Below, in pieces: positions 7,994 to 26,558 of a stretch of DNA of 64,000 nt. Numbering within the stretch: position 1 is the first letter of the stretch; each line of letters starts with the position of its first letter. The notes beneath the pieces were generated by a model. That model saw nothing but the letters and a program-made list of their open reading frames with translations, searched no databases and was not told where the DNA came from. The translations under genes were made by a program, and so were the position numbers. Location: positions 1,659,142 to 1,723,141 of the forward strand of contig NZ_VLLL01000005.1 of assembly GCF_007994225.1 (NCBI RefSeq). Reading direction: 5' to 3'. This DNA comes from Stackebrandtia albiflava. GTDB lineage: Bacteria > Actinomycetota > Actinomycetes > Mycobacteriales > Micromonosporaceae.

Positions 7994-8002
7994 GGTCGTC
8001 CC

Positions 8003-8509
8003 CTACTTCCCGGCCGAGTGGCGGCCGCGGCGGCGGGACGTCTTCAGGGTCTGCCGGATCTCGGCCTCCTCGGTCTCCCGGCGCCGCTTGGCGGCGGCCC
8101 GCCGGACACCGAAGCCGAAGGCGGCGACCTTCACCAGCGGGTTGGTCGCGGCGGCGGCCACCAGGGTGGACACGTTCGCGACGTTGCCGGTCACCTGCTG
8201 GGCGTGCTCGGTCATGGTGTCGACCTTGACGAGCTGTCCGTTGACCTCGTCCAGTGTGAGGTGGCTCTTCACCAGTGCCGTGTTGACGTGCTCGACGGTC
8301 ACGTTGATGTTGTCCAGCATCACCGAAGCGCGTGCGTCCACGTTCTCGATGGTCTTCGTGGTGCGCTTGAGCAGAGTGCTCAGCTTGGTGACCAACAGGT
8401 ACGACAGTGCCAGTGCCAGGATGAGGAAGGCGGCCGCGAAGACCAGCCCCACCACGTTGCCACCGGTCAATACTATGTCGCTGCTGGCCGCCGAGTACCG
8501 GGCTGACAC
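8003..8509 (-). CDS. DUF948 domain-containing membrane protein
   Basis: The protein has 168 aa: a short N terminus, one strong membrane helix (about residues 18-42, 'GNVVGLVFAAAFLILALALSYLLV'), a long predicted coiled-coil rich in T/V/N/H ('TTKTIENVDARASVMLDNINVTVEHVN') and a basic C-terminal tail 'RRRGRHSAGK'. This is the DUF948 layout. The GTG start has GGGGGAG seven bases upstream. It lies 9 bp before the DUF6167-like gene, in the rarA-to-aroE series. Function is unknown; an envelope or coiled-coil scaffold role is inference only. Confidence 0.85.
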   Translation of the reverse strand: MSARYSAASSDIVLTGGNVVGLVFAAAFLILALALSYLLVTKLSTLLKRTTKTIENVDARASVMLDNINVTVEHVNTALVKSHLTLDEVNGQLVKVDTMTEHAQQVTGNVANVSTLVAAAATNPLVKVAAFGFGVRRAAAKRRRETEEAEIRQTLKTSRRRGRHSAGK

Positions 8510-8600
8510 GTCAGCTCCCCCTTGTCAGGTCGATTTGCCGGAATTCCGAGGCGTGAACACGCAGGCTCGACCTTACCGCCGACGTCCACGGGCTCCCCGC

Positions 8601-9137
8601 TCACCCCGGGGCGTCCGCCACCTCCGACGCGGCAGTCACGACGGCCGCCACCGTGGCGAACCGGCATTCGGCCGTGTCGGGATCGCACCCGGCGCCCCGC
8701 ATCCACAGGTCCAGGAAGAACTCGTCGCGCCGAAGGCACTGCCGCACCGCGTCGTCCGTCGCGGGGCAGTCTTCCGGTACCGGCCGCCAGCCCGCCGTCC
8801 GCAGTGCCACCGCGTAGGCGTCGGCGGTCTCGGCGACCGGCCGACCGGACTGCCAGACCCGTTCCCGGATCCGGCACCTGTGGAGGCACCAGCGGCTCCC
8901 GTCGGCGGCGTCCTCCGGTTCCGACGCCGCCCACTCGGGCAGCTCCAGTTCGTCCAGTGCCGTGAAGGCCGGGTCGCGCGTCAGGGCGTCGAACCCGGCC
9001 ACGACCACCGTGCAGGCCGCGGCGGCGAGCAGGACGGTGGCGAGGGTGGCCAACCTCAGCCGGCGGATCCGGACGTACTGCCGGACCAGTTCGGCCCGGC
9101 CGTGGCCCCGGGGTCCGGCGCCGTCCCGATGCGTCAC
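8601..9137 (-). CDS. hypothetical single-pass membrane protein
   Basis: The protein has 178 aa from a GTG at 9137 that overlaps the rarA stop as GTGA. The frame continues upstream, but that part is antisense-like shadow of rarA. Residues 1-22 are basic, residues 26-48 form one membrane helix ('[22 protein letters not shown]'), and the rest is an extracytoplasmic domain with several Cys residues (WCLHRC, EDC, RQC, GC, EC) that could form disulfides. I do not recognise the family. Its position directly after rarA suggests co-transcription. Confidence 0.7.
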
Positions 9138-10492
9138 CGGTCGCCCTCCAGCCCGTCCCACACGATCGCCCTGAGCCGCGGAAGCCGGTCGGCGATCCCG
9201 GCCTCGGCGCCGTGCCGGGTGGGTTCGTAGTAGACGCGGCCCGCGACACCGTCGGGCGCGTACTGCTGGCTGACGACGCCCTTGGGGTCGTCGTGGGGGT
9301 AGCGGTACCCGGTGGCGTGTCCGAGTTTCCGGGCGCCCGCGTAGTGGCCGTCCCGCAACGAGGCGGGCACGGCTCCGGTGGCGCCGTCGCGGATGTCGGC
9401 GATGGCGGCGTCCACGGCGGTAACGACCGCGTTCGACTTCGGACTGGTCGCCAGGTGCACGACCGCCTGCGCGAGGTTGATGCGCCCCTCCGGCATGCCG
9501 ATGAACTGCACCGCCTCGGCGGCCGCCACCGCGATCTGCAACGCCGTCGGGTCGGCCATCCCGACGTCCTCGCTGGCGAAGATCACCAGCCGTCGCGCGA
9601 TGAACCGGGGATCCTCCCCGGCGACGATCATGCGGCCCAGCCAGTGCAGTGCCGCGTCGACGTCCGACCCGCGCAGGCTCTTGATGAGCGCGCTGGCGAT
9701 GTCGTAGTGGTTGTCGCCGTCCCGGTCGTAACGCACGGCGGCCACGTCGATGGCGGCCTCGGCGGTGGACAGCGCGATCGTGTCCAGGCCGGCGGCGTCC
9801 GCCGAGGCGGCGGCGGCCTCCAGCGCCGTCAACGCCTTGCGGGCGTCGCCCGCGGCCAGCCGGATCAGGTGGTCCCTGGCGTCGTCGGCCAACGCGAACC
9901 GGTCCGCCAGGCCCCGCGGGTCGGTCGTCGCCCGGTCCAACAGCGCGCCGATGTCGTCGTCGCCCAACGGTTCCAGGGTCAACAGGACGCACCGGGACAA
10001 CAGCGGCGCGACGACCGAGAAGTACGGGTTCTCGGTGGTGGCGGCCAGCAACGTGACGGTGCGGTCCTCCACCGCGGCCAACAGCGCGTCCTGCTGCGTC
10101 TTGGTGAACCTGTGCACCTCGTCGATGAACAGGACCGTCTGCCTGCCCCCCCGGCGGCGGGTGGCCCGGGCGGCGTCGATGACGGCACGCACGTCCTTGA
10201 CTCCGGCGTTGAGGGCCGACAGCGGGACGTAGTGGCGGTCGGTCGCCGAGGCGACCAGGTGCGCCACGGTGGTCTTCCCGCAACCAGGCGGCCCCCACAG
10301 GATCACCGACAGCGGCGCGTCACCGCCGACGAGTTGCCGCAGCGGCGATCCAGGTGACAGCAGGTGACGCTGACCGACGAGTTCGTCCAGCGACGCCGGG
10401 CGCATCCGCACCGCCAGCGGCGCGTCCGCCGGTGTGTCGCCCCGCCCCGCCGGTTCGGGCTCCTCGATGTCGAACAGTCCGGGCCCCTCCAT
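9134..10492 (-). CDS. rarA: replication-associated recombination protein A (RarA/MgsA, AAA+ ATPase)
   Basis: The protein has 452 aa. Walker A is GPPGCGKT (67-74) and Walker B is 'LFIDEVHRF' with DEVH at 124-127. Sensor '[10 protein letters not shown]' and arginine-finger region 'LLSRC' follow, then the MgsA C-terminal tetramerisation domain '[27 protein letters not shown]'. RarA acts at stalled replication forks. The N terminus begins '[12 protein letters not shown]', with an FD-type motif resembling the clamp- or SSB-interaction peptide of this family. It heads the minus-strand housekeeping run. Confidence 0.95.
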
Positions 10493-10540
10493 GTCGGAAC
10501 ACGTTACCGGCAGCCTCCGACGGCGGTGGAGCGGCCGAGC

Positions 10541-11008
10541 TCAGCCCGGTTCCGGGGGTTCGGCGGGCGCCACCCTGACGAAGTCGAACCGCGACGGGAA
10601 CGGGGCGGTGTCGATGCCGTCGCCGGTGATGCGCACGACGCGGCCCCGCGCGTCGCACTCGAACGCGGTGGCGGTGTAGGTGGGACTCCAGTCGACCTCC
10701 GCGCCGGTGCCGAGCCGGTTGACGCCGTCCAGCCGCCACACGACGTGACCGTCCTCGGTGACACGCCAGGTCCCCGAGCCGGTGGCGCGGTAGGGCGAGT
10801 CGAGTGTCGTGGCGGTGCCGTCGGCCGCCTCGGAGTCGGACAGCGTGACGGTGCTGTCGGTGCCGGGGCCGGCCTCCTGCCGGAAGGTGCCGAGGTAGTC
10901 GCCCCGCCAGGGGTGGCACTCGGGCGGTTCGTCGGCCCCGCTCGCCCCCATCGCGGCGGCGGCGACCAGGACGACCGCCCCGGCGGCGACGGCAGTGGCC
11001 CGTTTCAT
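10541..11008 (-). CDS. secreted hypothetical protein
   Basis: The protein has 155 aa from the ATG at 11008, chosen because GGAGGTG lies immediately upstream and the frame then opens with a signal peptide (MKRA then 'TAVAAGAVVLVAAAAMGASGA'). The mature part is a small beta-rich domain with two Cys (PPECHPW, FECDARG) and Trp/Tyr/Thr-rich strands ending 'FDFVRVAP'. This resembles small secreted domains of actinomycetes, but I cannot name a family. It lies 48 bp downstream of a convergent-free gap after rarA's start on the same strand, probably as its own unit. Confidence 0.7.
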   Translation of the reverse strand: MKRATAVAAGAVVLVAAAAMGASGADEPPECHPWRGDYLGTFRQEAGPGTDSTVTLSDSEAADGTATTLDSPYRATGSGTWRVTEDGHVVWRLDGVNRLGTGAEVDWSPTYTATAFECDARGRVVRITGDGIDTAPFPSRFDFVRVAPAEPPEPG

Positions 11009-11142
11009 GACACCTCCGTGGCACGGTGGGGCGGGACCGGTCCACAGTCCACATGCGGCACCGGACGGATCGACCATAGCGCAGCCGGGGCGCCGGGGTG
11101 AGCAACCGCACAACGCCGTGTCGGGATGCGTCCCGGGGCCGG

Positions 11143-11148
11143 TATTAA
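11143..11148 (+). promoter_or_regulatory. -10 element of the MFS exporter gene
   Basis: TATTAA lies 11 bases before the ATG at 11160 in otherwise GC-rich DNA, with no Shine-Dalgarno between. This predicts a very short or absent 5' leader. No convincing -35 is visible. Confidence 0.4.
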
Positions 11149-11159
11149 TGTGATCCGAC

Positions 11160-12470
11160 ATGAGTTCGCCCCACCCTCGTCGTCTCCACGGTTTCCGCCG
11201 GTTCCTCGGCTCGGTCGTCGTGGACACCCGGCCGCTGCGGATCCCGGCGTACCGGCGACTGTGGGTGTCGGGGGCGGTGACCGCCATCGGCAGTCAGTTG
11301 ACGGCGGTGGCGGTGCCCAAGCAGGTCTACGACCTGACCGACTCCTCCGCGATGGTGGGCGTGTCGGGCGCGGTGGCGTTGGTGCCGTTGCTGGTGTTCG
11401 GGCTGTGGGGCGGGGCGATCGCCGACACCCTCGACCGGCGTCGCCTCATGGTGTTCAGCAACGTCGGGGTGGCGGCGACGTCGGCACTGTTGTGGCTGCA
11501 GGCGTGGCTGGATCTGCGGTCGGTGTGGCTGGTCCTGTTGTTGCTCGGCCTGAACCAGGTCTTCTTCGCCATAAACTCGCCCGCGCGCAGCGCCGCCATC
11601 GCCCGGCTGGTGCCCGACGAGCTGGTGCCGCCCGCCGTCGCGCTGGGCTCCACCACGATGCAGTTCGGCGCCGTGATGGGACCGATGGCCGCCGGGGCGC
11701 TCATGCCGTTCGCGGGACTGTCGACGCTGTACCTCGTCGACACCGTCGCCCTGGCACTCGCCGTCGTCGCGGTGTGGCGGTTGCCCGCGATGCCGCCGCT
11801 GAACGGGCCGTCGCGTCGCGCCGGGTTGCGCGACGTGTGGGAGGGCTTCCGGTACCTGCGACTGCAACAGGTGTTGCTGGCGTCGTTCCTACTGGACGTC
11901 ATCGCCATGGTGGCGGGGATGCCCAGGGCGTTGTTCCCCGAGATGGCCGAACGGACCTTCGGTGACCCGGCGGGCGGCGGGATCGCACTCGGCTGGTTGT
12001 ACGCCGCCATACCGTTGGGCGCCCTGTTGTGCGGTCTCATGTCGGGGCGGCTGTCCCGGTTGCGACGGCACGGTGTGGGCGTCACGGTGAGCGTGTGCCT
12101 GTGGGGCGCGGCGATCGTCGGGTTCGGACTGTCCGGTTCACTGTGGGTCGCGGTGGCGTTCCTGGCGCTCGCCGGGGCCGCCGACTTCGCGAGCATGGTG
12201 TACCGCGGCAGCATGTTGCAACAGGCCACCACCGACGAGATGCGGGGCCGGTTGCAGGGCGTGTTCATCGTGGTCGTGGCGGGCGGTCCCCGGCTGGCGG
12301 ACCTGACCCACGGGTGGGTCGGCGAGACCGCGGGCACCTCGGTGTCGGCCTCGGGGGGCGGCGTGCTGGTCATCGTGCTGACGATCGTGGCGGTGGCGTT
12401 GATCCCGTCGTTCTGGCGGTACCGGACGGGTTCCGGTTCGCGATCGCCGGAGGCCGCCTCGGCGGGATGA
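11160..12470 (+). CDS. MFS transporter (EntS-type exporter)
   Basis: The protein has 436 aa and about 12 membrane helices. N-terminal 'RIPAYRRLWVSGAVTAIGSQ' and the cytoplasmic-loop signature 'GGAIADTLDRRRLMV' between TM2 and TM3 are typical of the enterobactin-exporter-like (EntS/TetV, DHA3) MFS branch. A second copy of the loop motif is 'GLMSGRLSRLRRHG'. Export of a hydrophobic metabolite or drug is the usual role; the substrate is not predictable here. It stands alone between two minus-strand genes. Confidence 0.85.
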   Translation: MSSPHPRRLHGFRRFLGSVVVDTRPLRIPAYRRLWVSGAVTAIGSQLTAVAVPKQVYDLTDSSAMVGVSGAVALVPLLVFGLWGGAIADTLDRRRLMVFSNVGVAATSALLWLQAWLDLRSVWLVLLLLGLNQVFFAINSPARSAAIARLVPDELVPPAVALGSTTMQFGAVMGPMAAGALMPFAGLSTLYLVDTVALALAVVAVWRLPAMPPLNGPSRRAGLRDVWEGFRYLRLQQVLLASFLLDVIAMVAGMPRALFPEMAERTFGDPAGGGIALGWLYAAIPLGALLCGLMSGRLSRLRRHGVGVTVSVCLWGAAIVGFGLSGSLWVAVAFLALAGAADFASMVYRGSMLQQATTDEMRGRLQGVFIVVVAGGPRLADLTHGWVGETAGTSVSASGGGVLVIVLTIVAVALIPSFWRYRTGSGSRSPEAASAG

Positions 12471-19782: not shown

Positions 19783-21930
19783 TCAGTCCTCGGGCGTGAG
19801 CCTGACCCGGCGCAACAACTGCGCGTTCACCGCGACCACGATGGTCGACACCGACATCAGCACCGCACCGACGGCCGGGCTGAGCACGATCCCGGCCCAG
19901 GCCAACGCACCGGCGGCCAACGGGATCGCCACCACGTTGTATCCGGCCGCCCACGCCAGGTTCTCGCGCATCTTGCGGTACGAGGCCGCCGAGAGCCGCC
20001 GGACACCCGTGACACCACGCGGATCCGAGGACGCCAGTACGACACCCGCCGACTCCATGGCCACATCGGTCCCCGCGCCGATGGCGATTCCGACGTCGGC
20101 CCGGGCCAGCGCCGGTGCGTCGTTCACGCCGTCGCCGACCATCGCGACCACCAGGCCCCGGGATTGCAACTCGGCCACCGCACGGTCCTTGTCGGCGGGC
20201 AACACCTCGGCGAACACCTCGTCCTGCGCGGTGAATCCGAGGTCGGCGGCGACCGCCTCGGCCACCGGGCGGGCGTCTCCGGTGATCATCACGATCTTGC
20301 CGACACCCTGCTCACGCAACTGACGGATCGCCTCCCGGGCCTCGGGCCTGACCTCGTCCTCCAGGGCGATGGCCCCCAGGGCGGTCGGCCGGTCACCCGT
20401 CAACCGCCACAGGTACAACACCGCCGCGCCTCGGCCCGACCACTCGGCCGCGTGGGCGGCGAGCTCCTCGGGAGCGGCCACACCGAGTTCCCGCAGCAAC
20501 GCCGGTCCACCGACCGCGTAACGGACACCGTCCACGGTGGCCTCGACACCACGCCCGGTCAGCGAACCGAACTCGGTGGCGACCGGACGGTCCTGTGGGG
20601 CGGCGGCGACGATCGCCCGCGCCAACGGGTGTTCGCTGTCGGATTCGACCGCCGCGGCGATCGCCAGGACCTCGTCCCGGTCCCTGCCACTCACCGCCGC
20701 CACCCCGCTGACGGTGTGGCTTCCCTTGGTGAGGGTGCCGGTCTTGTCGAACAACACCGCGTCGACGGTGCGCATCCGCTCCAGCGCGAGCCGGTCCTTG
20801 ACGAGGATCCCCGCCTTGGCGGCGACGGCCGTCGACAGTGCGATCACCAGCGGAATGGCGAGCCCGAGGGCGTGGGGGCACGCGATCACGAGGACGGTCA
20901 CGGTCCGGACCACGGACTCCGACAGGCTTCCCGCCAACGCCCACGCCACGAAGGTGACCACCGCCGCGGCCACCGCGATGTAGAACAGCAGTGCGGCGAA
21001 CCGGTCGGCGAGCACCTGGACCCGGCCACCGGAACTCTGCGCCTGCGCGACCATGCGCTGGATCCCTGCCAGCGCCGTGTCACCTCCGACGGCCTCGATC
21101 CTGACGCGGATCGCCGAGTCGGTCGCCACGGTCCCGGCGACCACCTTGTCACCCGGTTCTCGGCGGACCGGCCGGGACTCCCCGGTGATCATCGATTCGT
21201 CGAGTTCGGCCTGCCCCTCGGTGATCACGCCGTCGGCGGGGATCCGGCCGCCCGACCTCACCAGGACGACGTCGCCCAGGGCCAACGCGGACACCGGCAC
21301 CGTCTCCACTCCCGATCCGGTCACCCGCTCCGCGTCGTCGGGAAGCAGCGCCGCAAGTGCGGCCAGTGCGCCCTGCGCCTGCCCGATCGCCTTCATCTCC
21401 TGCCAATGTCCCAGCAGCATGATGGTGACCAGCGCGGCCAGTTCCCACCAGAAGTCCAGCCCGAACAGGCCCAGACTCGTCGCCAGCGAGGCCAGGAACG
21501 CCACGGTGATCGCCAGGCTGATCAACAGCATCATCCCGGGCGCGCGGTCGCGGGCCTCCTGCCAGGCACCGACGAGGAAGGGCCAACCACCGTAGAGGAA
21601 CACGGCCGTTCCCAACACCGGCCCGACGAGTTCCACCCCGGGGAAGTCGATCCGGTATCCGAACCACTCCATGATCATGTGGCTGGTGATCACGATGGGG
21701 ACGGTGAGGACCAGGCTGAGCCAGAACTTGCGGCGGAAGACGTCCGGATCGTGACCGGCGTGCTTGTCATGGCCGCCGTGGGCGTCGTGGCCGGAGGCAC
21801 CGCCGTGGGCGTCGTGCGTGGCGTGGCCGGAGGCACCGCCGTGGGCGTCGTGGCCGGAGTGAGCCTCCCGTACAGCGGGTGGCGGCTCGGCGCCCGTGCC
21901 GTGCTCTCCGTGCTGTGGGTGCTGCGTCAT
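19783..21930 (-). CDS. copB: CopB-type heavy-metal P-type ATPase with His-rich N terminus
   Basis: This 715-aa P1B ATPase has a His/Gly/Asp-rich cytosolic N terminus built of 'HDAHGGASGH'-type repeats, eight membrane helices, actuator 'ITGES', the intramembrane 'CPHALG' motif (CPH, the CopB/P1B-3 class), phosphorylation site 'DKTGTLTKG' and hinge 'MVGDGVNDAPAL'. CPH pumps with His-rich tails are generally assigned to Cu export. The ATG at 21930 follows a GGAGGGAAGG ribosome site; the open frame further upstream runs over the CsoR-type palindrome and is not coding. Copper-responsive control is inferred from that palindrome. Confidence 0.92.
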   Translation of the reverse strand: MTQHPQHGEHGTGAEPPPAVREAHSGHDAHGGASGHATHDAHGGASGHDAHGGHDKHAGHDPDVFRRKFWLSLVLTVPIVITSHMIMEWFGYRIDFPGVELVGPVLGTAVFLYGGWPFLVGAWQEARDRAPGMMLLISLAITVAFLASLATSLGLFGLDFWWELAALVTIMLLGHWQEMKAIGQAQGALAALAALLPDDAERVTGSGVETVPVSALALGDVVLVRSGGRIPADGVITEGQAELDESMITGESRPVRREPGDKVVAGTVATDSAIRVRIEAVGGDTALAGIQRMVAQAQSSGGRVQVLADRFAALLFYIAVAAAVVTFVAWALAGSLSESVVRTVTVLVIACPHALGLAIPLVIALSTAVAAKAGILVKDRLALERMRTVDAVLFDKTGTLTKGSHTVSGVAAVSGRDRDEVLAIAAAVESDSEHPLARAIVAAAPQDRPVATEFGSLTGRGVEATVDGVRYAVGGPALLRELGVAAPEELAAHAAEWSGRGAAVLYLWRLTGDRPTALGAIALEDEVRPEAREAIRQLREQGVGKIVMITGDARPVAEAVAADLGFTAQDEVFAEVLPADKDRAVAELQSRGLVVAMVGDGVNDAPALARADVGIAIGAGTDVAMESAGVVLASSDPRGVTGVRRLSAASYRKMRENLAWAAGYNVVAIPLAAGALAWAGIVLSPAVGAVLMSVSTIVVAVNAQLLRRVRLTPED
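21774..21859. repeat. in-gene tandem repeat encoding the His-rich metal-binding tail
   Basis: Three imperfect copies of a roughly 27-36 bp unit, each starting 'gccgtgggcgtcgtg', lie inside the ATPase gene and encode HDAHGG-type units. Copy number is likely to vary between strains. Confidence 0.6.
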
Positions 21931-22297
21931 CGTGACCTTCCCTCCGGACTCGACCTGTGCCGACCATAGGTGACCGTGCGCCGCCGTCGAGCCGTTTGCG
22001 GCGGTCGCGGTCTCGGCGGTCGTCCCGCCACCGCATTTATACCCCCTGGGGGTATAGATCGACCAGTCCGCCACTGTGATTTCCGCTATACCCCTCCCCC
22101 GTATCTGCATGAGTGTCCGGTCCGGATCGCCGCCGCGCATCGCGGGCGAATCCGCCGGGAGGCGTACGTCCCACCCGTGACGACCGCAGCGGACGGCAGG
22201 GGACACCACTCGGCCGGATCCAGGCGGAACCGCCGACTCCGCGGTAACGGTCCGAACGGGACGGTCTCCTCACCGCGGTGAACCGGGTGTCCACCCG
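21931..22297. other. intergenic region upstream of the metal ATPase
   Basis: These 367 bases separate the monooxygenase stop from the ATPase start, both on the minus strand. They hold the CsoR-type palindrome at 22038-22056 and, about 30 bp away, a second half-site-like block TATACCCC (22087-22094). I see no credible coding sequence; the open frame running across it is an upstream extension of the ATPase frame. Confidence 0.6.
22038..22056 (-). promoter_or_regulatory. CsoR-type copper operator
   Basis: TATACCCCCTGGGGGTATA is a perfect 19-bp palindrome around one central base. It matches the TACCCC...GGGGTA form of CsoR/RcnR-family operators. On the ATPase strand it abuts TATAAA, a likely -10 box. 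No csoR gene is in the window, so the repressor would act in trans. Confidence 0.75.
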
Positions 22298-23854
22298 TCA
22301 CGGTGAGGAGACCGGGGCCGGGAGGCTCAACACCCGCGCCAGGACGGCCGAGAAGACCTCCGGTTCCGGACGATCCCCCCGCCAGGCGACCACGCCGTCG
22401 GGACGCACCAACACCCCCTCCGAAGACCCCAACCGGTAGACCCCGGCCACCTCGCCACCGCAGCCGTGCACGTCCACGGGTACCGGCGCGCGGCGTGTCA
22501 CCCGCCGCCAGCCCAGCGCGTCGCCGGCCGTCAGGAGCACGAAGCGGTCACCGAACAGGTCCACGGTGGATCTGCCGTCGGCCAGCCACACGTGCGGTGC
22601 CCGGGTTCCCGGTCGGCCGGTGAGAGAGGCCGCCGGCGACACCACCGGCGGCGGCCGTCCCGTGACCACCGCGTTCGAGCGGTATCCGAAACCCAGCAGT
22701 ACGTCGTTCCGGTCCACGATGGGTTCGGTGGCGCCGCCGCCGGAACCGAACCGGTGCCCGGCACGTGCCGTCGCCTGCGCCAACGCCGCCGTCGCGGCGG
22801 GACGCCGCTCGGCCTCGTAACTGTCGAGCAGGCCGTCGCCCGCCCGGCCGAGCGCCACCGTCGCCAGTTTCCACGCCAGGTTCCGGGCGTCCTCCACACC
22901 GGTGGAACCCCCGAATCCGCCGGTGGGCGGCATGACGTGTGCCGCGTCACCGGCGAGGAACACTCTTCCCACCCGGTACCGGTCGGCAACCGACGCGCCG
23001 ACCCGGAACCGCATGACCCTTCGGTCGCTCCCCGGAAGCTGGGGCAACAACGTGACCGGCAGGTCGGGCACACCTACCGCCTGCCGCACCAGGGTCACGC
23101 AGGTACCGACGTCGTCTCCCGCCTCGTCCACGGTGCCGAACACCCAACGGTGCGCGTCGCGTCCCAGCGACATGAGGAAGGTGCCCGGTCTCGGACGGGA
23201 CAGGTAGGCCATGTCCACCGTGCGCCCCGCCAGCGCGGGCCGCAGGTCGGCGGCGACCAACGCGGTCAGCATGCGACGTTCTCCGCCCGAATCGGTCGAC
23301 GCCACACCCAGCGCGTGGCGGATGGGGCTGTCCGCCCCGTCCGCGGCGACCAGATAGTCGCACTCGACGGGCTCGGGTTCCGCTCCGGCGACACGTAGGA
23401 CGCCCGACACGTGATGGCGGTCCTGCCGCAGATCCGTCAGTTCGACACCGAACCTCACCCGCGCACCCAGTTCGACCGCGCGGCGGCACAGCAGCCGCTC
23501 CACCCGGTCCTGGTCGATGGGCAGGCCGGCGCAGGGACTCAGGTCCGCCCCCGCGGCGACGTCGACGTGGAGCGCGACCGCCTCGTGCCGGCCCGCGAGG
23601 CTGTCCGCCCGGACCGACACGTAGTCGGCGGGACCCGGCAGGTGCAGCCGATCCGCCAGCAACGCCGGTTCCAGACCGACCTGCCGGTACGACTCCATGC
23701 TGCGTATCGAGAGGCTGCGCTGCCGAGGATGGCTGAGCAGGCCGGCGTGCCGCTCGACGAGTACACAGCGGACACCGTGCCAGGCCAGGAAGACCGCGCA
23801 CGACAACCCCACCAGTCCCCCACCGACGACCAGCACCCTCGGCCCGCCGGACAT
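22298..23854 (-). CDS. FAD-dependent aromatic monooxygenase (group A), last gene of the MRYWY cluster
   Basis: The protein has 518 aa. Rossmann FAD motif GGGLVG (11-16), the DG motif 'ADGADSPIR' (171-179) and the GD motif 'AGDAAHVMPPTGGFGG' (301-316) define the para-hydroxybenzoate-hydroxylase fold. It resembles the large polyketide/phenol hydroxylases with a C-terminal thioredoxin-like domain. Such enzymes hydroxylate aromatic rings with NAD(P)H and O2. Its ATG overlaps the previous stop (TGATG). In this cluster a Tyr or Trp side chain of the peptide is a plausible substrate, by inference. Confidence 0.88.
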   Translation of the reverse strand: MSGGPRVLVVGGGLVGLSCAVFLAWHGVRCVLVERHAGLLSHPRQRSLSIRSMESYRQVGLEPALLADRLHLPGPADYVSVRADSLAGRHEAVALHVDVAAGADLSPCAGLPIDQDRVERLLCRRAVELGARVRFGVELTDLRQDRHHVSGVLRVAGAEPEPVECDYLVAADGADSPIRHALGVASTDSGGERRMLTALVAADLRPALAGRTVDMAYLSRPRPGTFLMSLGRDAHRWVFGTVDEAGDDVGTCVTLVRQAVGVPDLPVTLLPQLPGSDRRVMRFRVGASVADRYRVGRVFLAGDAAHVMPPTGGFGGSTGVEDARNLAWKLATVALGRAGDGLLDSYEAERRPAATAALAQATARAGHRFGSGGGATEPIVDRNDVLLGFGYRSNAVVTGRPPPVVSPAASLTGRPGTRAPHVWLADGRSTVDLFGDRFVLLTAGDALGWRRVTRRAPVPVDVHGCGGEVAGVYRLGSSEGVLVRPDGVVAWRGDRPEPEVFSAVLARVLSLPAPVSSP

Positions 23855-24849
23855 CACGGACCGCCGGTCACGGGTTCGGCCGCGCACTTCGTCACCGCCG
23901 CGTCGCGTCCACATCGTGTCGTCGTGCGGACGCGCATGCCGTCACGCCCGGGATCGACCGTCAGGACCCGCTCCTCGGTCCAGCCGGCGAGACGGAGGTC
24001 TCCGCCGCCGAGGTGTACCAGACCGAATCGTGGCGTGCCCTCCACCACCAGGACGGGGCCGTCCGGCGTGACGACGATCTCGGCGGGCACGGTCGCGTCG
24101 GCCGGCGCCACGGGTTCCTCTTCGGACCACTCGAGGAATCGTCGCGGTAGGGGGAAACGACACCGCAACGCGTCGCGTTCACCCGGGGTGAGCGGCACCG
24201 GTGCGCGGGCCAGGACCACGTCCTCCACGGCGATCCCGCCGAGGTATCCGGACGGGAACAGGTCGAGCAGTTCCTTGCCGACCAGGCAGTCCAACACGAG
24301 GTGGACCCGTGCCGTGGTGCCGGTGTTGGCCACGAGGTGTGGACGGTCGAAGTCCCCGAACCAGAGCCGTCCGGCCTCCCAGTGGAACGACCGGCCGTCT
24401 ATGACGACGGTCGCCCCCGGGTTGGTGACCACCGGGACGTGCAACCGCACCACGCCCCAGGGCATGCCGCACTTGGCGTCGCGGTGTTCGGCCACCTCCA
24501 CGCCGGGCCCCAGGGCCATGAGACGGACGGCGAGCAGACCGGCCGGGAACTCCCGGATCAACCGGCGCAGCGCCGGTGCGCCGTCGAGGTGAGGGGTCTC
24601 GGCGTGCTCGACCAGTCCGGCGCCACCGGCGTCGGTGCGCAACGGGTCGCCGCCGGGACTCCGCAACGGCAGGATGGTCCAGTCGATGTCGGACTGCCGC
24701 CGCATCCCGTCCTGTCCGATGGCGCGTTGCGCCCGCCAGGGGCGGCGTCGCAGCTCGGCCACCTCGGCGGCCAGTTCGGCGGCGTCGTAACGGCGGGCGA
24801 GCCGGACCGCCGGGGGAAGCGCCCGCCAGTCCGTGGGGTGGTCGATCAT
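23854..24849 (-). CDS. aspartyl/asparaginyl beta-hydroxylase-like dioxygenase
   Basis: The protein has 331 aa from the ATG at 24849 (GGAGG six bases upstream). An AspH/LpxO-type cupin domain spans about residues 75-190: 'EHRD' with His122, 'VVRLHVPVVTN' (135-143) and 'RPHLVANTG' with His171, then Arg181 in 'RVHLVLD'. This fits the two-His iron site and 2-oxoglutarate-binding Arg of the family. The C-terminal 140 residues have no recognised domain. The frame stays open upstream to a GTG at 25071 and would swallow the 18-bp MRYWY gene; that GTG sits against the Shine-Dalgarno and is an unlikely start. Beta-hydroxylation of a peptide residue is the inferred role. Confidence 0.8.
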   Translation of the reverse strand: MIDHPTDWRALPPAVRLARRYDAAELAAEVAELRRRPWRAQRAIGQDGMRRQSDIDWTILPLRSPGGDPLRTDAGGAGLVEHAETPHLDGAPALRRLIREFPAGLLAVRLMALGPGVEVAEHRDAKCGMPWGVVRLHVPVVTNPGATVVIDGRSFHWEAGRLWFGDFDRPHLVANTGTTARVHLVLDCLVGKELLDLFPSGYLGGIAVEDVVLARAPVPLTPGERDALRCRFPLPRRFLEWSEEEPVAPADATVPAEIVVTPDGPVLVVEGTPRFGLVHLGGGDLRLAGWTEERVLTVDPGRDGMRVRTTTRCGRDAAVTKCAAEPVTGGP

Positions 24850-24881: not shown

Positions 24882-24911
24882 CCGTGGCCCGGCGGCCGTG
24901 CCGGGCCACGG
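24882..24911 (-). terminator. strong GC hairpin after the MRYWY gene (attenuator-like)
   Basis: There is a 12-bp perfect stem (24882-24893 paired with 24900-24911) and a 6-base loop, with no U-tract. It lies in the 197-bp gap between the MRYWY stop and the hydroxylase start. It could reduce read-through from precursor to downstream tailoring genes or protect the 3' end of a precursor transcript. Confidence 0.55.
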
Positions 24912-25046
24912 TCATGACAGCTGCCGGATCGCCGTCCGGCCCACGTGCTCGATGTCGTCGTCCGAGGCGCACCGATGCCGGGCCGGGCGGACGGCAGTTC
25001 AGGGCATGTCGGTCACCGGCACGCACGCCGGCACCGACCGCCGTCC

Positions 25047-25064
25047 TCAGTACCAGTAACGCAT
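25047..25064 (-). CDS. pentapeptide RiPP precursor MRYWY (biarylitide-type)
   Basis: This is an 18-bp gene: ATG-CGT-TAC-TGG-TAC-TGA on the minus strand. It is preceded by AAAGGAGG with a 6-base spacer to the ATG, the best ribosome site I see in the window. Biarylitides are the known precedent: bytA-type genes of 18 bp encode pentapeptides beginning MRY, whose position 3 Tyr is cross-linked to the position 5 aromatic residue by a P450, leaving a cyclic tripeptide. Here Tyr3 and Tyr5 (or Trp4) would be the cross-linking partners. The gene lies inside a minus-strand operon with P450, sulfotransferase, methyltransferase, AspH-like and FAD-monooxygenase genes, 67 bp after the methyltransferase. 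Expression and modification are inference. Confidence 0.8.
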   Translation of the reverse strand: MRYWY

Positions 25065-25070
25065 GGCACA

Positions 25071-25078
25071 CCTCCTTT
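25071..25078 (-). promoter_or_regulatory. Shine-Dalgarno deciding the MRYWY start
   Basis: AAAGGAGG, six bases before the ATG at 25064. The alternative in-frame GTG (25071-25069) for the downstream hydroxylase begins on the last base of this element, so it cannot be served by it. Confidence 0.8.
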
Positions 25079-25131: not shown

Positions 25132-25911
25132 TCAGCGGTCGTGGGCGAGTCGGGCGACCAGCGTGCCCTTGTCGTCCAACGGCGTACCGCTCTTCTCGAT
25201 CGCCGTGCCACCGACGGGGACGAGTCCCGCCGCGGCGAGGTCGGCCACGACTCCGGCGGGCCGGTGCATGTGGTGATCACGTTCCACGACGTGGCGGCCG
25301 ATCTCCTCCCCCGCCGACCACGTCCGGTAGACGTGCCTGACCCTCGCGAGGTCGTCGGTGACCGGCCGCACCTCGGTGGACAACGTGTACCGGCATTCGC
25401 CCTGCACCGCCGCCCGCACCTCGTGCTCGTCCAGGTCGGGTATCACCTCGTCCTCGACCATGTCCATGGCCAGCACGCCGCCGGGCGCCAGATGCGCCGC
25501 CAGGGTCTCGAACAGGGCGGGCCGCGCGGTCGGCGGCACGTGTTCGTACACCGCCGACAGGTACACGTAGTCGAACCGGCGGCCCAGGTCGAATCCCGGT
25601 GCCGCGACATCCAGGACCGTGACCCGGTCGCGCAGCCCCGGATCGGCGGCGAGCTTGGTCAGCAGCACCGCCCGCATCGTCGGGGACCTCTCCAGGCACG
25701 TCACCGTGCCCGCCCGCCGCGCGACCGCCATGGTCATCCGTCCCGTGCCGGGGCCGATCTCCAGCGCGTCACCGCCCTCGGGCGCCATGTCGGCGAAGAA
25801 CCCGACCAGCTCGGCGGAGCCGGGCCCCACGTGCAGCAGGTCGTAGAGTCCGGCGACGGCACCGTAGGGGTCGGTGTCGGCGGTGACGGTCAGGTCGGGA
25901 ACGGGGGTCAT
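25132..25911 (-). CDS. SAM-dependent class I methyltransferase of the MRYWY cluster
   Basis: The protein has 259 aa from the ATG at 25911 overlapping the sulfotransferase stop (ATGA). Motif I is 'LEIGPGTGRM' (50-59), with an acidic residue after the second strand in 'VTCLERSP', 'VTVLDVAAPGFDL' and the post-I 'YVYLSAVYEHVP'. The fold is that of small-molecule O/N-methyltransferases. Within the cluster it may methylate the peptide's termini or phenols, by inference. It ends 67 bp before the MRYWY start. Confidence 0.85.
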   Translation of the reverse strand: MTPVPDLTVTADTDPYGAVAGLYDLLHVGPGSAELVGFFADMAPEGGDALEIGPGTGRMTMAVARRAGTVTCLERSPTMRAVLLTKLAADPGLRDRVTVLDVAAPGFDLGRRFDYVYLSAVYEHVPPTARPALFETLAAHLAPGGVLAMDMVEDEVIPDLDEHEVRAAVQGECRYTLSTEVRPVTDDLARVRHVYRTWSAGEEIGRHVVERDHHMHRPAGVVADLAAAGLVPVGGTAIEKSGTPLDDKGTLVARLAHDR

Positions 25912-26558
25912 GCGTCCTCCTGGTGACGGGGTGACGGCCGGCCGGGGAGTGCCCCGGCGGCGGCGGCACGGTCGAGGTACTGGCCGGTGGTGTTCACGTG
26001 TGGGAAAGGGGCGTCGGGTACGGCCACACCCAGGCCGGCGCACAGCGGCTCCCAGCCGCGGGCGGGATCGCACTCGACCAGCCGGTCCGGCGGCACCTCG
26101 GCGCGGACCTCCTCGTTGTGCCGCAGGTACACGGCGACGGCGTGGGACCGGTCGGCGAAGCGTCCGCCGAAGGTGCCCCGCCATACGATGTGTTCGATGG
26201 CGTGGTCGGCGGCGGTCCGTGGCCGCGCCGGGCGGGTGCGGTACAGGGTGGCGTGGACGCTGTCGTACCAGGTGTCGGGGTCCCTGACGGTCAGCAGCAC
26301 CTTGGCGTCGGGGAACGCCGCGGCGAGGTCACGCCAGTAGCGGCTGCCGGGCCAGGCCACACTGGACCGGTAGCCCGCGAGCAGCCCGGCGGCCGTGACG
26401 CCCGGCTCGCCGGACGCCAGGGCGGACCAGCCACGGGCGTGAACCGGATCGACGGCCAGCATCCGCATGTAGTGCACCGGGCCGAGTCCCAGCGTCTCCA
26501 GTGCGGTCCGGACCGAGGAGGTTCCGGTGCGGCCGAACGCGGCGCCGACGACCCTCAT
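25908..26558 (-). CDS. PAPS-dependent sulfotransferase-family protein
   Basis: The protein has 216 aa. The 5'-phosphosulfate-binding loop 'GRTGTSSVRTAL' (9-20) and the 3'-phosphate motif 'LTVRDPDTWYDSV' (89-101) are those of the Sulfotransfer_4-like family. The short C-terminal region 'PFPHVN' is also characteristic. Sulfation of a tyrosine hydroxyl in the product is a reasonable inference, since the precursor has two Tyr. It starts 28 bp after the P450 stop and overlaps the methyltransferase gene by 4 bp. Confidence 0.82.
   Translation of the reverse strand: MRVVGAAFGRTGTSSVRTALETLGLGPVHYMRMLAVDPVHARGWSALASGEPGVTAAGLLAGYRSSVAWPGSRYWRDLAAAFPDAKVLLTVRDPDTWYDSVHATLYRTRPARPRTAADHAIEHIVWRGTFGGRFADRSHAVAVYLRHNEEVRAEVPPDRLVECDPARGWEPLCAGLGVAVPDAPFPHVNTTGQYLDRAAAAGALPGRPSPRHQEDA

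Follow-up and report, generated by a model that had tools for sequence, protein, structure and literature searches.

The 18-bp genes for the pentapeptide precursors of biarylitides have been called the smallest known genes (Padva et al., PMC13417212, July 2026). According to that paper, a clade of six clusters with the precursor MRYWY is founded on Stackebrandtia nassauensis, and five of the six carry a sulfotransferase. The S. nassauensis precursor gene, bytA, lies about 1400 bp downstream of bytO, and bytA stands apart from bytO in all six MRYWY clusters, an arrangement described as unique among 277 clusters (PMC13417212). AciB, the P450 from Actinocatenispora rupis, turned 36% of the peptide Nle-RYWY into a single -2 Da product in vitro, for which deuterium labelling pointed to a C-C bond between Tyr3 and Tyr5. 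Neither S. nassauensis nor A. rupis gave a detectable product in culture, nor did either cluster when expressed heterologously (PMC13417212). A literature search for MRYWY returned this paper alone.

Two other P450s, RufO and P450Blt, are known to bind pentapeptides (PMC12186263). In P450Blt, His234 contacts His-5 of the substrate, and the neighbouring residue is Glu238, whose own contact with His-5 is broken in P450Blt (PMC12186263). For a third system, myxarylin, the order of events is cross-linking, leader removal by a host peptidase and N-methylation (PMC12951456), an order that we take as an analogy below.

We analysed a 64,000-nucleotide stretch of the Stackebrandtia albiflava genome, referred to here as the window. 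Its minus strand carries an operon with genes for, in order, a cytochrome P450, a sulfotransferase, a methyltransferase, an 18-bp gene, an aspartyl/asparaginyl hydroxylase family protein and a flavin-dependent aromatic hydroxylase. The 18-bp gene (25047..25064, minus strand), of the bytA type, reads ATG CGT TAC TGG TAC TGA from 25064 to 25047 and encodes MRYWY. It is preceded by the ribosome-binding site AAAGGAGG (25078-25071), which together with a 6-base spacer to the ATG fills 25065..25078 on the same strand. The initial annotation of this DNA, which had described an 18-bp MRYWY gene on the minus strand behind a well-spaced ribosome-binding site, was right about sequence, strand and frame.

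How specific such a short gene is was gauged with pattern searches and reversed controls. Across the whole genome, the pattern MRYxx had seven matches, six of which end in TGG, leaving only the one at 25047 with a true stop; the search pattern ended in TRR and so admitted TGG as well, and its reversed control, which was equally loose, gave 17 matches. Among 200 genomes of the family, three, the source genome included, contain the full MRYWY with a TRR ending; TGA is the stop in all three, and the reversed control gave 0 in the 200 family rows. When GGAGG was required ahead of MRYWY, the only hit among 396 phylum-sampled genomes was the source genome itself.

Related loci were collected by scanning genome contigs for the P450, which yielded 29 loci; adding the window, G021 and the MRYWY-carrying family genomes G012 and G046 brought the table to 33 loci. 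A P450 at least 44% identical to that of the window is present in 31 of the 33, and 30 of these 31 have a pentapeptide gene, encoding MRYWY (6 loci), MKYWH (22), MRYWH (1) or MRYRH (1). All 30 pentapeptides have Tyr at position 3 and either Tyr or His at position 5. The assignment to the biarylitide class, made earlier from the neighbouring P450, is borne out by this pairing: the window holds an 18-bp gene for an MxYxY/H pentapeptide and a homologous BytO-type P450 in the same operon. Two distant loci make up the remainder, L036, which showed no pentapeptide gene, and L035, which has no P450 match at E 1e-20. At L011 (Nocardioides speluncae), a search for any pentapeptide and for partial motifs found none; its P450 (2335-3486) is 53% identical to the window's and lies beside a sulfotransferase gene on the opposite strand (4252-3614, 47%). 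L031 (Actinomadura sp. J1-007) carries the MRYRH gene twice, roughly 60 and 141 nt beyond the P450; the fourth residue of this peptide is Arg.

MRYWY occurs at six loci: the window, L008 (Actinomadura barringtoniae), L009 (Nonomuraea jabiensis), L010 (Actinomadura xylanilytica), L058, which is from the window's family and a different genus and might, at a guess, be A. rupis, and L059, which is Stackebrandtia nassauensis and thus distinct from the window's Stackebrandtia. They span at least four genera, with the gene in the same cluster position in each, and the window P450 is 61-69% identical to the P450s of the other five. Within Stackebrandtia, the P450 occurs in 2 of 5 genomes searched.

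Comparison of these six loci indicates that the 18-bp gene is under selection. Over its 18 bp the mean pairwise identity is 92%, and the only variable places are the third base of the Arg codon (CGT, CGC, CGG) and the stop (TGA, TAG), so that all changes are synonymous. Just upstream, mean identity is 75% for bases -15 to -6 and 72% for bases -5 to -1. Further out, the segment spanning -70 to -16 and the 40 bases that follow the stop (+1 to +40) are 27-30% identical, which is the chance level, since unrelated 30-mers from the same six loci are 29% identical. A conserved peptide and ribosome-binding site amid drifted flanks mark this as a five-codon gene that is translated and under selection. 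Conservation of both elements in related genomes had been proposed as a check on the initial annotation, and it held at all six MRYWY loci.

Might the 18 bp instead be a chance open reading frame near the 5' end of an extended hydroxylase gene? The aspartyl/asparaginyl hydroxylase family protein is assigned to 23854..24849 (minus strand; 331 aa; PF05118, E 2.7e-14), but its frame is open upstream to a GTG at 25071, out of register with MRYWY, and a start there had been raised as a worry at the outset. When the long frame was used as the query, four of five homologues aligned only from residues 81-88 onward, past the ATG at 24849, which is residue 75. The remaining homologue, from L059, aligned from residue 55, and thus with the last 20 residues before that ATG; this part overlaps the conserved hairpin described below and still lies after the locus's own bytA. 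Used on their own against 8 loci, the 74 upstream residues gave a best E value of only 0.16. Moreover, three of the six MRYWY loci are without the Asp/Asn-type hydroxylase and still keep MRYWY, with only synonymous variation in the 18 bp. The start at 25071 is unsupported, and we consider a chance frame within the hydroxylase gene to be next to impossible.

A second alternative accepts that MRYWY is translated but makes it a regulatory mini-ORF, that is, a leader or attenuation peptide for the downstream genes and not a substrate. Its position, with a hairpin and then the later operon genes directly behind it, would suit such a role. Yet in 23 of the 24 loci with a YxH pentapeptide, the P450 match ends 27-60 nt ahead of the precursor gene (in the remaining one, L034, the gap is 465 only because the P450 match is split in two pieces), and homologues of the other four enzymes were not found in 21 of these 24 loci. 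The residue at position 5 also varies in step with the P450 I-helix, as set out below, and AciB takes the MRYWY-type peptide as a substrate (PMC13417212). We therefore regard a purely regulatory peptide as very improbable, and favour a bytA precursor gene. In all six MRYWY loci, a gap of 801-1526 nt separates the end of the P450 match from the start of bytA. In the window, the bytA ATG lies 1522 nt past the P450 stop, which exceeds the usual biarylitide limit of about 500 bp; because the published MRYWY clade separates the two genes, this gap is no bar to membership.

The P450 (26587..27756, minus strand; 389 aa; PF00067) is of the type encoded by bytO, the cross-linking enzyme, and has its heme ligand at Cys340, as placed by motif. 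Among solved chains the nearest is 22yx, followed by RufO (8spp, 9eby; E 2e-76) and P450Blt (8u2m; E 3e-71), the last three codes being named after PMC12186263 and PMC12951456. In the RufO alignment and in a multiple alignment, from which the rows L043, L044 and L049 (read on the wrong strand or frame) were dropped before counting, His234 and Glu238 of P450Blt fall on Phe230 and Ser234 of the window P450. A motif read-out of all 31 P450s gave Phe and Ser at these two I-helix positions in all six MRYWY P450s; all 24 YxH P450s have His there and 23 have Glu, the exception being L060 with Ala. The L011 P450 has His and Ala (HAGYAS), the same as the MKYWH P450 of L060. The position-5 residue and the two I-helix positions thus change together, although this is a correlation along one clade, and the Phe/Ser change is, as far as the data go, one event along it.

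The likeness to RufO raises a third alternative, in which the P450 modifies MRYWY without cross-linking it, for example by nitrating it in the way that RufO nitrates MRYLH, and the peptide is no more than the source of a modified amino acid for another pathway. RufO (8spp) does rank slightly above P450Blt among the matches. However, a scan of 14 frames within the cluster and beside it detected no nitric oxide synthase family, and AciB, from another MRYWY cluster, gives a -2 Da C-C product in vitro (PMC13417212). A P450 that leaves the peptide uncross-linked is accordingly a far-fetched reading, and we favour a cross-link between Tyr3 and Tyr5. The initial annotation had left the linkage open between Tyr-Tyr, Tyr-Trp and ether; a Tyr3-Tyr5 C-C bond is now in print for AciB (PMC13417212).

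The remaining enzymes of the operon point to further modification. The sulfotransferase (25908..26558, minus strand; 216 aa) matches PF17784 at 175.7 bits and has 9kf1 as its nearest solved chain (E 1.7e-54); a literature search on the PDB code 9KF1 returned nothing relevant. Its gene overlaps by 4 bases (ATGA) with that of the SAM methyltransferase (25132..25911, minus strand; 259 aa), which has Pfam methyltransferase domains. The methyltransferase scored 77.7 bits against a daptide-type methyltransferase model, under its cut-off of 175, and its best solved chain was 3g2m (E 1.5e-11), with CorZ (9sot) at E 1.3e-8; the likeness to CorZ is that of a general class I enzyme only. Downstream of the Asp/Asn-hydroxylase gene, the FAD aromatic-ring hydroxylase (22298..23854, minus strand; PF01494 and PF21274) likely starts at the ATG at 23854, which overlaps the preceding stop (TGATG), although a longer frame runs from 23914. 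The closest NCBIfam model is the aklavinone 12-hydroxylase RdmE, at 361.9 bits and so under the cut-off of 700. None of the 14 scanned frames showed a peptidase domain, and characterised biarylitide clusters are likewise without a peptidase (PMC12951456). Outside the operon lie a zinc-dehydrogenase-like oxidoreductase gene upstream and a copper-type P-ATPase gene downstream, neither of which we take as a cluster member. The latter encodes a P1B ATPase (window 19783-22209, minus strand), sits directly downstream of the cluster and is probably unrelated.

A methyltransferase and a flavin hydroxylase are each present in 6 of 6 MRYWY loci, a sulfotransferase in 5 of 6 (it is missing from L010), and an Asp-hydroxylase-like gene in three, namely both Stackebrandtia and L058. 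At E 1e-20, the 25 other loci have no flavin enzyme, two methyltransferases (L012 and L060), three Asp-hydroxylases (L012, L060 and L031) and one sulfotransferase (L011, on the opposite strand); several of these loci end at contig ends, so that the absence of a gene there is weaker evidence. The MRYWH cluster of L012 (Micromonospora sp. MW-13, 8001-12223) combines a P450, a methyltransferase and an Asp-hydroxylase-like gene, and another, distant P450 comes after it.

Between bytA and the hydroxylase gene, the window contains a 12-pair hairpin of the terminator or attenuator type (24882..24911, minus strand), and an equivalent, of 9-13 perfect pairs, follows the bytA stop in all six MRYWY loci. 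The distance from the stop to the hairpin is 9-21 nt in the five relatives and 135 nt in the window; two further strong stem-loops lie in the intervening 24912-25046 (minus strand). Equally long stems occur in 0 to 9.5% of random stretches from the same loci. In an alignment of the six sequences over 11 pairs, 65 of 65 cells are paired and three pairs are changed on both sides, and slid versions of the alignment pair in 18-48% of cells. The both-side changes were reached in 5 of 500 shuffles and the count of pair types in 185 of 500, figures to be read with the caveat that there are six sequences and that related sequences can exceed shuffles without any structure. The control for the hairpin covered 22 of the 30 pentapeptide loci, the MKYWH loci L016, L020, L022, L025, L027, L028, L029 and L033 being left out; in the 16 YxH loci included, the best stems had 5 to 15 pairs, and several were no better than background.

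The hairpin was also considered as a motif specific to the cluster, and this was rejected. Its exact stem, GTGGCCCGG...CCGGGCCAC, occurs at four other sites in the genome (10 strand matches, versus 4 in the reversed control), each 5-7 bases past the end of a long open frame, where frames were taken from stop to stop and are not gene calls. Because each of the other copies follows a long open frame, the hairpin is better read as a terminator-like element of the ordinary kind. A scan for terminators with a T-run did not pick the hairpin. Perhaps, then, the hairpin after bytA is a leaky terminator, with part of transcription reaching the hydroxylase and flavin enzyme genes. A hairpin of this sort has been considered before: for myxarylin, PMC8708641 lists a supplementary figure on the predicted secondary structure between bytA and bytO, beside a terminator hairpin.

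Taken together, the best explanation is that the 18-bp gene is a biarylitide bytA whose product is cross-linked by the P450 between Tyr3 and Tyr5 and then tailored, and we assign this reading a probability of roughly 93%; the three alternatives discussed above (long hydroxylase frame, regulatory peptide, nitration) were weighed and rejected. The ribosome would make MRYWY from the 18-bp bytA. By extension from AciB, the P450 would then remove two hydrogens and join the rings of Tyr3 and Tyr5, with the bulky Trp4 in the loop. If myxarylin is a guide, a host peptidase would next cut off Met-Arg, and the methyltransferase would probably methylate the freed N-terminus. Going by their families, the flavin hydroxylase probably acts on an aromatic ring, and the sulfotransferase probably places a sulfate on a phenol or hydroxyl. 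The three loci with the Asp/Asn-hydroxylase-like protein probably use it to hydroxylate a side chain. For the cross-linked tripeptide, calculated [M+H]+ values are 529.208 (YWY minus 2H), 543.224 with CH2 added, 545.203 with O, 609.165 with SO3, and 639.176 with CH2, SO3 and O together. The hairpin probably ends part of the transcripts, so that bytA would outnumber the messages for the hydroxylase and the flavin enzyme. As the S. nassauensis and A. rupis clusters have given no product, these tailoring steps are without support from a mature compound. The full picture, in which the product is an N-methylated, ring-hydroxylated, usually sulfated Tyr-Tyr-bridged tripeptide, the I-helix Phe/Ser pair sets Tyr-5, and a leaky terminator raises the supply of precursor, is one that we offer tentatively, as possible rather than probable.

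The observation in the initial annotation is correct but no longer new. A YWY core, not known to the initial annotation as a described one, is in print (PMC13417212, July 2026), as are the class and the cross-link. The gain is modest because the clade and its cross-link are already published. What the window adds is comparative evidence that an 18-bp gene, of a kind that gene callers miss, is translated and kept. It also yields simple predictions for the MRYWY clade, on the P450 residues that would favour Tyr at position 5 instead of His and on the two enzymes, methyltransferase and flavin hydroxylase, that all loci found have in common. The two enzymes in 6 of 6 loci, the I-helix Phe/Ser pair and the conserved hairpin go beyond PMC13417212 in its accessible form, the main text of which is without the words hairpin, terminator, flavin, FAD, methyltransferase and monooxygenase.

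How does the window cluster compare with known systems? RufO, of rufomycin biosynthesis, is a related P450 that acts on the pentapeptide MRYLH, but it nitrates Tyr3 without forming a cross-link (PMC12186263) and, in our alignment, keeps the I-helix His and Glu, whereas the window has Phe and Ser there and no nitric oxide synthase in the scanned frames. The myxarylin cluster, bytAOZ, also pairs a pentapeptide with a P450 and a SAM methyltransferase, but differs in its MNYLH precursor and its Tyr-His link (PMC12951456, PMC8708641), and its methyltransferase is only distantly similar to that of the window; PMC12951456 does not use the word sulfotransferase in its main text. The YxH biarylitides (MKYWH, MRYWH and MRYRH, with P450s 44-54% identical to the window's) have in common with the window an 18-bp precursor gene, a ribosome-binding site and a homologous P450, and two of their loci, L012 and L060, also have a methyltransferase and an Asp-hydroxylase-like gene. 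They differ in that bytA directly follows the P450 gene, position 5 is His, the I-helix pair is His and almost always Glu, and no flavin hydroxylase was found in the loci compared. From the MRYWY clade of PMC13417212, in turn, the window cluster shows no definite difference as far as the accessible text goes: the pentapeptide is identical, bytA lies far downstream of the P450 gene, and five of six clusters have a sulfotransferase. Our own set, likewise, comprises six loci, five with a sulfotransferase and all six with a gap of 0.8-1.5 kb. Since the number of loci, the number of sulfotransferases and the inclusion of S. nassauensis all match the published description, the window cluster is probably one of the six published MRYWY clusters.
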